Of a stretch of DNA of 52,726 nucleotides, positions 5,213 to 8,316 are shown one piece after another. How positions within the stretch are numbered: position 1 is the stretch's first letter; every line of letters starts with the position of its first letter. Source of the DNA: Bacillota bacterium (GTDB lineage Bacteria > Sysuimicrobiota > Sysuimicrobiia > Sysuimicrobiales > Segetimicrobiaceae); the NCBI GenBank assembly GCA_021324975.1, contig JAJPIA010000087.1:1-52726 (forward strand), written 5' to 3'. Under the pieces are notes generated by a model. It was not told where the DNA came from and ran no database searches. It saw only the letters and a program-made list of their open reading frames with translations. Made by a program: the position numbers and the translations under genes.

Positions 5213-5384
5213 CGGCTGCGGCGCCGGCGCCTCGCCGGCGCCGGCCGCGGACCAGGTGCCCGGATCGGGCGCAGGCACGTGGCATAGACCGAGGCAGCAC
5301 GTGCGCGGCAACGCGAGTCGACATGAAAAAAGGAGTCCCCGCGGGACTCCGCACGCACACGATCATCAATGACCGGCGCACCAT
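5184..5384 (-). CDS. Possible carA leader peptide ORF
   Basis: An ATG at 5384 with a strong ribosome binding site (GGGAGGGG, spacing 3) opens a 66-codon frame beginning MVRRSLMIVCVRSPAGTPFF. Codons 12-20 overlap the intrinsic terminator, so a ribosome moving through it would prevent the hairpin from forming. Codons 3 and 4 are both arginine, and arginine is an end product of the carbamoyl phosphate pathway, so stalling there could sense charged tRNA-Arg. The frame resembles no known protein. The evidence is position, the ribosome binding site and overlap with the terminator; peptide function is inference. Confidence 0.4.
   Translation of the reverse strand: MVRRSLMIVCVRSPAGTPFFMSTRVAAHVLPRSMPRACARSGHLVRGRRRRGAGAAAVAFLLMLYV
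5219..5243 (-). other. 11-bp GC-rich hairpin in the carA leader
   Basis: Perfect inverted repeat: arms 5219-5229 and 5233-5243 around the three bases CCT. On the minus strand it is followed nine bases later by a T-rich stretch. That spacing is too long for a standard intrinsic terminator, so it may be a pause site or a second regulatory hairpin. Confidence 0.4.
5326..5350 (-). terminator. Intrinsic terminator inside the carA leader (candidate attenuator)
   Basis: Arms 5350-5343 and 5339-5332 (GGAGTCCC/GGGACTCC) form a perfect 8-bp stem with a CGC loop, followed on the minus strand by six T residues (5331-5326). This is a textbook rho-independent terminator. It lies between the upstream promoter (5427-5455) and carA, inside a short reading frame, which is the layout of a transcription attenuator. 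Confidence 0.75.
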
Positions 5385-5426
5385 CGACCCCTCCCGGAGA
5401 TCGTTAATGGTCCGCGACCCGGGATT

Positions 5427-5455
5427 AGTATAGGGCCAGGGGCATGCCGTGGCAA
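5427..5455 (-). promoter_or_regulatory. Distal promoter of the carAB operon (P1)
   Basis: On the minus strand TTGCCA (5455-5450) and TATACT (5432-5427) are separated by exactly 17 bp, a good sigma-70 type match. Transcription would begin near 5420 and give a leader of about 265 bases containing the leader peptide, the terminator and the second hairpin before carA. Confidence 0.7.
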
Positions 5456-5720
5456 GGCCTGTTCCCCATAGCCCCATAGTCCCCACCCATGGCAACCGAT
5501 CCGTGTCACGCATCCGCCCTTAGGCCATCCCCACCAGTTGGCGGAGCCGCCGCACGTACCTTTGGACGGGCGCGCGCCTGTCCATCCGGGCGACGCTTGC
5601 TTCCGCTGGATGCGCCATACTAGCCACAGCCAGAAACACGCGGGAGGCCTTGTGCTCATCGACCGCGGGCGCGGCCAGCACGAGCAGCACCTGCCCGAGC
5701 TAGAAAGAGGAGATCAAACC
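5456..5720. other. Intergenic, no gene seen
   Basis: This is the space between the divergent carA promoter and the Tat-exported hydrolase. No ribosome binding site with a credible reading frame, repeat or RNA motif was recognised. The promoter of the rightward hydrolase is presumably here but no convincing -35/-10 pair was found. Confidence 0.4.
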
Positions 5721-7007
5721 ATGAGCCCCACGATGAGTCGACGCTCGCTCTTGTCCGGATTCGGTGCCGCTCTCGGCACAATGGCCATGGGCGCGCACCC
5801 GGCTCCGGCCCGCGCGGCAACTCCGCCGTTTCAGGCGTCATCGCCCACCCAGCAAGTCAACCTTTCCGTGCCCTTTGGCGCGGGAGGACTGATGGGCGGC
5901 GATTCAGAGGGGGGCCAGGCCTACGTCGAGCGACTGATCAAGACCGCCCTAGTGCCGCCGCTCTCCGACGTCGGCATCTACGCGCACGGCTGGCTCACCG
6001 ATCAGGACGACCTGATGGTGATCTACGACACCATGACCGAGGGCTTTAATCTCGAGCTCCGCACCCTCGACAGCGGCCTCCAGGCGAGCGCGACCCGAGC
6101 GCCCATGACGGCGCCACAGCTTTCGTTACCGACCTCGATGCTGATGCTCACGACGCATTGGCCTGCCCGGCAACGCGGCGAGGGCCCGATCGGCCTCGCC
6201 GACCTCGCGACGTTTTCCAAAATGGAGGCTCGAGCCAACCTCGTGGGACGCGTGGGGATGGCCCGGTTGATCGGCCTCATCTGGGAGCGCCTGCTGGCGG
6301 AGCCGGCGCTGGCCTCGACCCGACTCACCCTGGTCGGGCACAGCTTCGGCGCCCGCGTGTTTGCCAGTGCGCTCAGCGCGCTAGCGGTCCAGGCACCGGA
6401 CGCCTTTGCGGCGATCCAGCCACGCAACCCCATCGACTTGGTCATGCTTCAGCCCGCGATGCCGGCCGACGCGCTCGAGCCCAACGATCTCACCCAGGCG
6501 CACCCCTTCGCGCAGCTGGTCAATTACCGCAACCTCCGGATCCTCTCGACGATGTCGCGATGGGACATCCCGCTTCGCCGGTTCTACCCGGCGAACGAGG
6601 CGCAGCAGCCCAGCGATGCCGTCTACGCGCGTGCCGCCGCCGCGGGGCGGGAGCAGGTTCCCGCGCTCGGCGCGGCCGGCCCGAGCGAGGCAACCTGGAG
6701 GGCGTTCAACGGCGAGCTGCCCCGGGCCAATATCCCGGTCGACCGGGGGTTTCGGTACGCCGACGTGTTTCCGTACGCTGATGGGCGCCTCGTAGTCGCC
6801 GATTTGACACCACTCCATGCGGCGCATCACCGCGAAGATGCGCTACGGCCGCCCGGCCAGTTGCCCCCGTTTGGCCGGCCCGACAGGCGGTCGCTCGGCC
6901 TCTCCGGGTATCACACGGACATCTACAGCCGGGAAGTCTACCAGCTCGTCATCGGGTTCGCGCTGGCGCGTGCGGCGACATTGCGCGCGCCAACGATTCG
7001 CCTGTGA
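5721..7007 (+). CDS. Tat-exported alpha/beta-hydrolase-like protein
   Basis: A 428-residue protein. The N-terminus has a twin-arginine signal (MSRRSLLSGFGAALG, then a hydrophobic stretch to about residue 33 ending ARAA), so it is exported folded. Residues 88-91 (AHGW) could form the oxyanion strand and residues 206-210 (GHSFG) match the GxSxG nucleophile elbow with Ser208. A late GYHTDIY could supply the catalytic His. This points to an alpha/beta hydrolase, perhaps a lipase or esterase; the substrate is unknown. The ATG at 5721 is preceded by AGAGGAG; the frame is open further upstream but lacks a ribosome binding site there. It stands alone, diverging from carA. Confidence 0.7.
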   Translation: MSPTMSRRSLLSGFGAALGTMAMGAHPAPARAATPPFQASSPTQQVNLSVPFGAGGLMGGDSEGGQAYVERLIKTALVPPLSDVGIYAHGWLTDQDDLMVIYDTMTEGFNLELRTLDSGLQASATRAPMTAPQLSLPTSMLMLTTHWPARQRGEGPIGLADLATFSKMEARANLVGRVGMARLIGLIWERLLAEPALASTRLTLVGHSFGARVFASALSALAVQAPDAFAAIQPRNPIDLVMLQPAMPADALEPNDLTQAHPFAQLVNYRNLRILSTMSRWDIPLRRFYPANEAQQPSDAVYARAAAAGREQVPALGAAGPSEATWRAFNGELPRANIPVDRGFRYADVFPYADGRLVVADLTPLHAAHHREDALRPPGQLPPFGRPDRRSLGLSGYHTDIYSREVYQLVIGFALARAATLRAPTIRL

Positions 7008-7080
7008 ACCGCGGGGCGCTTGTGGCCGCGGTCTCCCGCCAATGACGAGCCAAACTACGACAATTGCTACCAATCTAAAT

Positions 7081-7304
7081 GGGGTCCTCGCGGAAAGCCT
7101 TTCCCTGCGGCCGAGACTAAGTCTCGGCCGACCCCTGTTGCGGGGACACCCGCGGCGCCCGAGAGTGAGAGTGTGCAAGGGGCTTTTCGTGACGGGTCGA
7201 GGGCTGGGAGAGAGGCTCCCGTCGCTCGTCGCGGAGATCCGCGATGCCTAGAGACGCCGCTCGCACTCAGTCCGGTGCCAGCCGGACGAGACTCTACGAT
7301 GAAA
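7081..7304 (+). ncRNA. Structured RNA candidate, possibly HEARO/omega-RNA-like
   Basis: This gap between two genes contains an unusual density of nested complementary segments. They include GGGGTC 7081-7086 with GACCCC 7130-7135; GGAAA 7092-7096 with TTTCC 7100-7104; a perfect 10-bp hairpin 7108-7117/7121-7130; GCGGCG 7152-7157 with CGCCGC 7255-7260; TCGCGGA 7229-7235 with TCCGCGA 7238-7244; and GTCCGG 7270-7275 with CCGGAC 7282-7287. GAGTGAGAG (7163-7171) can pair with CTCGCACTC just 5' of the last hairpin. The segment ends in GAGACTCTACGATGAAATC-like sequence. Size, multi-hairpin layout and the terminal ATGA resemble HEARO RNAs, the guide RNAs of IscB nucleases, but no iscB lies nearby. The structure is seen directly; the family is a guess. 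Confidence 0.4.
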
Positions 7305-7329
7305 TCACTACCATTTCAGCATTCGGGAT

Positions 7330-8316
7330 TTAGCGGGCCGGTTCGAGCACCACGGCGCGCCACTCTCCGCTCCGCAACGTTCGCCGGCGTCGAAAGCCTC
7401 CCGCCCGGGCGGCGCGCAGCACGTCGCGCACGCGGCCCGCAACGATGCCGGACGCGATACAGGCCCCGCCCGGACGTAACCGTCGACGGGCGGCCGGCAG
7501 TAACCCGATCACGGTGTCGGCAACGATGTTCATGAGGATCACGTCCGCCTGCCCGCGCGCGGGGTCGAGTCCGTCTCCGCGTGCGACGCGAACGGCCTCC
7601 GCGACGCGGTTTCGCCGCACATTCCCGCGCGCGACCGCCACGGCGACGGGATCGTTGTCGACCGCCCAGACCCGTCCGGCGCCGAGTCGCGCCGCGGCGA
7701 TGGCCAGGATGCCAGAGCCGGTTCCGACGTCGTACACTACCGTCCGAGATCGCCGTGAGGGCGGCAGCGCACGTCCCGACCGCGAAGGGTTAGCGCGCGG
7801 CGAAAGCGCCTCGGGCAGCGCGCGCAGGCACAACTGTGTTGACGGGTGCAGGCCGGTGCCGAACGCCATCCCCGGGTCGATGTCCACAACGACGCTTCCG
7901 GCCGGCGGCCGAACGCGCACCCACGAGGGACGCACAAACACGGATCCCACGCGAACGGGCGGTACCTGCCGACGCCACGCCGTGGCCCACCGCCGGCCTC
8001 TCACGCGGCGGTGGGCCACCCTGACGCTGCCCGGATCCAGGCCGAACGCGCGGAGGCCGTGCACACGCGCTCGGATGGCGCGGAGCGTGGTAGACAGCAG
8101 CCGCGATGGCGGCAGATAGCACCGGAACCGGCAGCGGCCGCGCGGACGGCGCTCCTCCACGATCCCGCCGGACCGAAGCTCGTGCAGGATCGCGCTTGCC
8201 GCTTCGGAGACCTCCGCGGATGCCTCGACCGTCACCTCGACCCAGGACGGCCGTATCTCGACGGAGCCGGACGTGCGTCCCGCCTCGCTGCGGCGCTTAG
8301 AGTCCCGACGGGTCAC
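7330..8316 (-). CDS. prmA: Ribosomal protein L11 methyltransferase
   Basis: The 328-residue protein matches PrmA, which trimethylates ribosomal protein L11 using S-adenosylmethionine. The C-terminal methyltransferase domain is clear: DPGMAFGTGLHPST before the SAM site, DVGTGSGILAIAAARLGA as motif I, WAVDNDP as motif II and the catalytic-loop-like MNIVAD. The N-terminal substrate-recognition region is weakly conserved and rich in arginine. GTG at 8316 overlaps the dnaJ stop (GTGA), so translation is coupled. It is the third gene of the hrcA-dnaJ-prmA operon, an arrangement also known from Firmicutes. A short inserted Arg/Pro/Ser-rich segment lies between the LHPST motif and motif I. Confidence 0.93.
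   Translation of the reverse strand: MTRRDSKRRSEAGRTSGSVEIRPSWVEVTVEASAEVSEAASAILHELRSGGIVEERRPRGRCRFRCYLPPSRLLSTTLRAIRARVHGLRAFGLDPGSVRVAHRRVRGRRWATAWRRQVPPVRVGSVFVRPSWVRVRPPAGSVVVDIDPGMAFGTGLHPSTQLCLRALPEALSPRANPSRSGRALPPSRRSRTVVYDVGTGSGILAIAAARLGAGRVWAVDNDPVAVAVARGNVRRNRVAEAVRVARGDGLDPARGQADVILMNIVADTVIGLLPAARRRLRPGGACIASGIVAGRVRDVLRAARAGGFRRRRTLRSGEWRAVVLEPAR

Follow-up and report, generated by a model that had tools for sequence, protein, structure and literature searches.

What kind of RNA would be encoded by a strongly folded sequence that stands alone between two unrelated bacterial genes, and how would it have come to be there? The window (the whole 52,726-nucleotide stretch of contig JAJPIA010000087.1, Bacillota bacterium assembly GCA_021324975.1, forward strand) contains a gap that is bounded by a hydrolase reading frame ending at 7007 and by prmA, on the minus strand, ending at 7330. 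A first-pass annotation made from the letters alone had described this 320-bp gap as non-coding, strongly folded and rich in complementary segments. The fold is real: on the plus strand it reaches -154.8 kcal/mol (z = -3.3), a value equalled by 0 of 100 shuffles, and the minus-strand fold is unremarkable (z = -0.6). The complementary segments are also present, as 11 inverted-repeat pairs within the gap, and a perfect 11-bp hairpin lies at 7108-7130. The same annotation had proposed a HEARO/omega RNA separated from its IscB nuclease, pointing to an ATGA near the end of the segment. The 3' end of a HEARO RNA abuts an ATGA or GTGA integration site.

The covariance model for HEARO (RF02033) is silent here, both across 6800-7500, even at E <= 10, and genome-wide at E <= 1, in a search whose control matched only below the cut-off, in one named genome. 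The RRXRR domain found at the N-terminus of IscB has no match in the genome; the control for that search was likewise without any match. A sensitive blastn search against plasmids returned 93 records that match over window 7092-7308, and the best rows are 70-81% identical to it. The annotated bounds of the proposed RNA, 7081-7304, nearly coincide with this homologous block. Nearly all of the named plasmid records that match are from Alphaproteobacteria, and none of the phage records matches the element.

The plasmid matches sit directly upstream of, and reach into, ardC; in the annotated plasmid records the match stops just inside the gene for a zincin-like metallopeptidase, which is ArdC. This protein and its relatives have been discussed as being transferred with, or as protecting, incoming single-stranded DNA (PMC5512222). 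Translated in the ardC frame, the window reads MPRDAARTQSGASRTRLYDEIT before it continues into unrelated residues and a stop codon, which leaves about 22 ardC codons in place. An ArdC N-terminal profile compared with the six-frame translation of the window picks the frame of this remnant (E = 3.3e-6; next best 0.77), and the ATGA at 7299-7302 is therefore ardC coding sequence, part of the codons TAC GAT GAA ATC (YDEI). The ArdcN domain has no match in the window's genome. The ATGA reported by the annotation thus exists and is not a HEARO-type terminal motif, and homology runs across it to 7308 rather than ending at an integration site. Only part of the gap is non-coding: 7085-7243 is a leader, and a broken beginning of ardC occupies 7244-7333. 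The features of the leader and the remnant are as follows.

7085-7160, plus strand: upstream module U, three hairpins, conserved in 36 aligned leaders (alignment A2)
7162-7171, plus strand: AGAGTGAGAG box, nearly invariant and unpaired in the consensus, with columns at or above 90% in alignment A1
7187-7196, plus strand: 5' strand of helix P1 (TCGTGACGGG), with pairs counted on alignment A1
7206-7220, plus strand: hairpin P2 (GGGAG-AGAGG-CTCCC), whose loop, AGwGG, is conserved
7225-7234, plus strand: 3' strand of helix P1 (CTCGTCGCGG), whose final two G also begin the GGAG
7233-7236, plus strand: Shine-Dalgarno sequence GGAG, 7 nt upstream of the ATG in the window
7244-7333, plus strand: broken ardC start, 29 codons (MPRDAARTQSGASRTRLYDEITTISAFGI) and a stop, with homology to about 7308

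The segment 7085-7243 is probably the displaced, structured 5' mRNA leader of an ardC gene from a mobile element of alphaproteobacterial type, where it would act in translational control. The two parts of this reading differ in strength: its assignment as a leader is held with high confidence, and control of translation by the leader is predicted as likely.

When the plasmid copies were searched against the fetched loci, further copies were found before other genes of the same plasmids, and each copy closes at its 3' end with a GGAG that a short spacer separates from a start codon. A DNA pattern that included neither the Shine-Dalgarno sequence nor the start codon matched at least 120 genome stretches (among the matches listed, nearly all are labelled Alphaproteobacteria), as well as three contigs of a viral collection. 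The collection began with 27 copies; a profile search then gave 228 matches, of which 222 full-length copies were analysed. All but seven of these (215/222) open a reading frame of at least 60 amino acids or run off the contig, and the spacing from GGAG to the start codon is 7-9 nt in 211/222. The downstream genes cluster as ParB-like (95 copies), DUF932 (42), ArdC (40), a 185-aa family of unknown function (27) and RadC (3). Pfam searches of target representatives confirmed ParB_N, ArdcN with MPTase-PolyVal, and RadC; the DUF932 label is taken from the RefSeq annotation of one locus (L020), the representative tested having no Pfam match. Where a locus carries two or three copies (75 loci), these always share one strand. 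A fixed position before start codons, on the strand of the gene, is characteristic of a cis-regulatory leader. That the leader might itself be coding sequence was considered and rejected, because the copies differ by indels whose lengths are not divisible by three. Sampled evenly, the class to which one carrier belongs has the element in 20 of 289 genomes (about 7%), with more than one copy in 14 of the 20.

Two members of the collection deserve separate mention. The 185-aa family (L120:3020-3574, minus strand, and 26 relatives) is the fourth commonest gene behind the leader; its representative has no Pfam match, and the family is a candidate antidefence or establishment protein. A 6542-bp circular plasmid (L005, NZ_CP155764.1) carries a full leader and a DUF932-like gene without other targets.

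These copies also settle the HEARO proposal, which was mistaken. A divergent HEARO/omega RNA, or another nuclease guide RNA whose protein has been lost, would share the size, the many stems and the terminal ATGA that the annotation had observed, and HEARO RNAs and the present element are alike in being compact, multi-stemmed and tied to mobile DNA. Against this stand the silence of RF02033, the location of the ATGA within ardC codons, and the genes downstream of the homologues (ardC, parB-like, DUF932 and radC, with no iscB or tnpB among them); moreover, the copies stop at start codons rather than at insertion targets. Unlike a HEARO RNA, the element is the leader of its target gene, and a guide RNA of any kind is now a highly improbable explanation.

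The core common to all copies consists of an AGAGnnAGAG box, the 10-pair helix P1 and the hairpin P2 with its AGwGG loop. Among 46 diverse sequences, two-sided changes occur in 11 of 17 core pairs and in 5/5 pairs of P2, and 92.8% of cells are paired, compared with 88.3 +/- 0.5 in shuffled alignments and 41-55% when the structure is slid. The covariation score of the same sequences is 0.297 (shuffled, 0.210 +/- 0.009), and the prediction made by RNAalifold itself gives a nearly identical core. The inner six pairs of P1 are nearly invariant and therefore carry little information on pairing. Its two outermost pairs engage the G at positions one and two of the Shine-Dalgarno sequence, which over 59 copies are paired with mean probabilities of 0.91 and 0.82, and these last two pairs, which mask the ribosome site, fail in 2/46 and 9/46 sequences. 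Conserved secondary structure with compensatory changes is a further property of cis-regulatory leaders. Covariation among the homologues supports both P1 and P2.

The strand that folds bears on a different explanation, in which the element would be an Frpo-type promoter of single-stranded DNA: the incoming transferred strand would fold into a promoter-like duplex, so that transcription begins before second-strand synthesis. Such Frpo/ssi promoters have been described for plasmid leading regions (Samuel et al. 2024, PMC11541004), and the likeness is considerable: the genes downstream are of the leading-region type, the single-strand folding is strong, and folded copies are repeated before several antidefence genes on the same conjugative element, with a single orientation in each locus. 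An Frpo-type promoter, however, would need the template strand to fold, whereas, of 60 copies of the element, 57 fold better as the coding strand than as its complement (z of -3.5 vs -1.6). The wobble pairs are likewise the G.U pairs of the coding strand, the G.U:A.C counts on coding-strand helices being 239:12 for P1 and 179:51 for P2 (a count biased to the strand first drawn). The coding-strand fold and the G.U excess indicate RNA and argue against a template-strand promoter. The search for sigma-70-like promoters found 0 sites resembling -35/-10 hexamers in 6900-7400, where there is also no terminator-like site, and conservation extends to the Shine-Dalgarno sequence and the ATG, where the element ends; a promoter would have no need of either. 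A single-strand promoter is accordingly an unlikely reading of the element, and an mRNA leader is preferred.

Other structures accompany the core in some copies. A further hairpin, P0, formed around the AGAG box, was examined as a general feature and rejected; it is left outside the common structure because a copy's own arms do better than exchanged ones in only 82/156 comparisons. P0 is strong in part of the ParB-type copies: several of these (including L044, L070, L103, L135 and L138) have an extra hairpin of up to -26 kcal/mol with the first AGAG in its loop. Many ardC-type copies, and the window at 7229-7244, could instead form the hairpin CGCGG-AGAn-CCGCG, which would contain the whole Shine-Dalgarno sequence and compete with P1. 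It is found only in some ardC-type copies and is therefore perhaps a local switch.

Upstream of the core, U is an 80-nt module of ArdC-type leaders, that of the window among them, and of some DUF932-type leaders. In the window its hairpins include one at about 7137-7154 as well as the perfect inverted repeat 7108-7118/7120-7130, and in the second hairpin of the module both arms have changed together in three copies (L003, L014 and L109; compare L004). U is a separate element, because it is found without the P1/P2 core in five places. In two of them (L063:6265-6344, minus strand, and L087:2404-2485, plus strand) the coreless module (GGGGAAAGCCTTCCCC...GCGGGGAGACCCCGCAACGCCCC) precedes a gene beginning MRFLFPHSHAFRKGRV; in the other three (L143:2251-2337 and L077:5063-5145, both minus strand, and L137:870-950, plus strand) it precedes another conserved non-coding stretch.

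The arrangement of the core suggests how the leader may work. Closed P1 would partly mask the ribosome site, and a trans-acting factor could read the AGAGnnAGAG box, the AGwGG loop of P2, or both, its binding stabilising or opening P1. A factor shared in this way would place several unrelated genes of one element under one switch; on entry into a cell without this factor, antirestriction and establishment proteins would be made in a burst, followed by shut-off. Such a burst on entry would be the most economical biological role. A leader that constitutively enhances translation or stabilises the mRNA, rather than acting as a switch, is the less probable alternative, at perhaps one chance in five. 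The strong fixed fold, the good Shine-Dalgarno sequence and the lack of any second conformer conserved across all copies are in keeping with such an enhancer, whereas P1, lying over half of the Shine-Dalgarno sequence, should reduce initiation, and strictly conserved unpaired boxes suggest recognition by a factor. The most likely function is that of a cis-acting translational control element common to entry-phase genes of conjugative elements. A 5' UTR helix over the Shine-Dalgarno sequence is also seen in autogenous translational leaders (e.g., those of ribosomal proteins); unlike these, one type of leader here serves several unrelated mobile-element genes, and its regulator is putative.

The radC RNA motif (RF01754) comprises structured, presumed 5' UTRs of proteobacterial foreign-DNA genes, including radC and antirestriction genes. 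The present leaders resemble it as 5' UTR structures with similar targets, radC itself included, which raises the question of whether they form a divergent subtype of that motif, an idea compatible with a leader. In contrast to the motif, however, no locus or genome tested reaches the RF01754 gathering cut-off (40 bits), its weak matches do not coincide with the element, and the R1 model built for the leader finds nothing at the sites of those weak matches. Membership of the radC motif, which was listed in Weinberg et al. 2010 (PMC2864571), is thus improbable. Every other Rfam family is without a gathering-threshold match in the window (tRNA apart) or in 11 plasmid loci, and single copies matched no Rfam 15 family at E <= 10. 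The searched literature, which largely omits subscription journals, held no description of the element or of such a regulon. The element represents a new family within a known kind, the cis-regulatory leader, and its target genes make up an unusual and coherent set.

The copy in the window scores 74.5 bits with R1 (E 1.6e-16), having been one of the 46 sequences on which the model was trained. Among 43 genomes of the window's phylum there is one other R1 match, a marginal one of 23.7 bits, and among 385 further relatives none at E <= 0.001 (in both cases with part of the candidates scored). Further copies, which the annotation had suggested looking for, are absent from a DNA search of the genome itself and its relatives; a relative lacking the insertion, which it had suggested for comparison, does exist. 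In a same-genus genome (G002), prmA is followed by about 85 bp and then by sequence matching window 5461 and below, and blastn of the window against L153 and L154 shows homology ending at about 7336 and restarting at about 5461. Because G002 has only these 85 bp, one block is extra in the window:

5462-7335, strand not assigned: hydrolase reading frame, leader and ardC remnant, replacing about 85 bp in the same-genus relative

The hydrolase was considered as a co-traveller from the same plasmids, and this was rejected; it is probably native to the window's lineage, since it has homologues inside the window's own family and no plasmid match. On the minus strand at 5380-5470 lies a conserved short reading frame or attenuator-like leader (GGACCATTAACGATCTCCGGGAGG...ATGGTGCGCCGG) before carA, followed in relatives by a GC hairpin and a T run; it is present in L153, L154 and L159 as well. 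The leader in the window is a lone remnant of horizontal transfer, missing from the empty site in the same genus. The simplest history is that a mobile element was acquired and lost except for the leader and 22 codons, the fold being retained so far. With ardC cut after about 22 codons, the copy is probably a relic that has no remaining output. 'Orphan structured RNA' and 'remnant', two terms of the first-pass annotation, both proved apt.

Promoters, single-strand promoters included, are the usual explanation for how antirestriction and establishment genes come to be expressed as a conjugative element enters a cell. It is possible, if somewhat less than probable, that this one leader fold, which lies outside Rfam 15, constitutes an RNA-level genome-entry regulon with a common trans-acting factor and a burst at entry; so read, the regulon takes in the genes for ArdC, ParB-like, DUF932 and RadC proteins together with further establishment genes across alphaproteobacterial mobile elements. 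A common mRNA leader before several entry genes would point to a coordinated translational layer, which is directly testable, and the R1 model offers a handle for finding unrecognised antidefence genes, with the 185-aa family behind 27 copies as a candidate.
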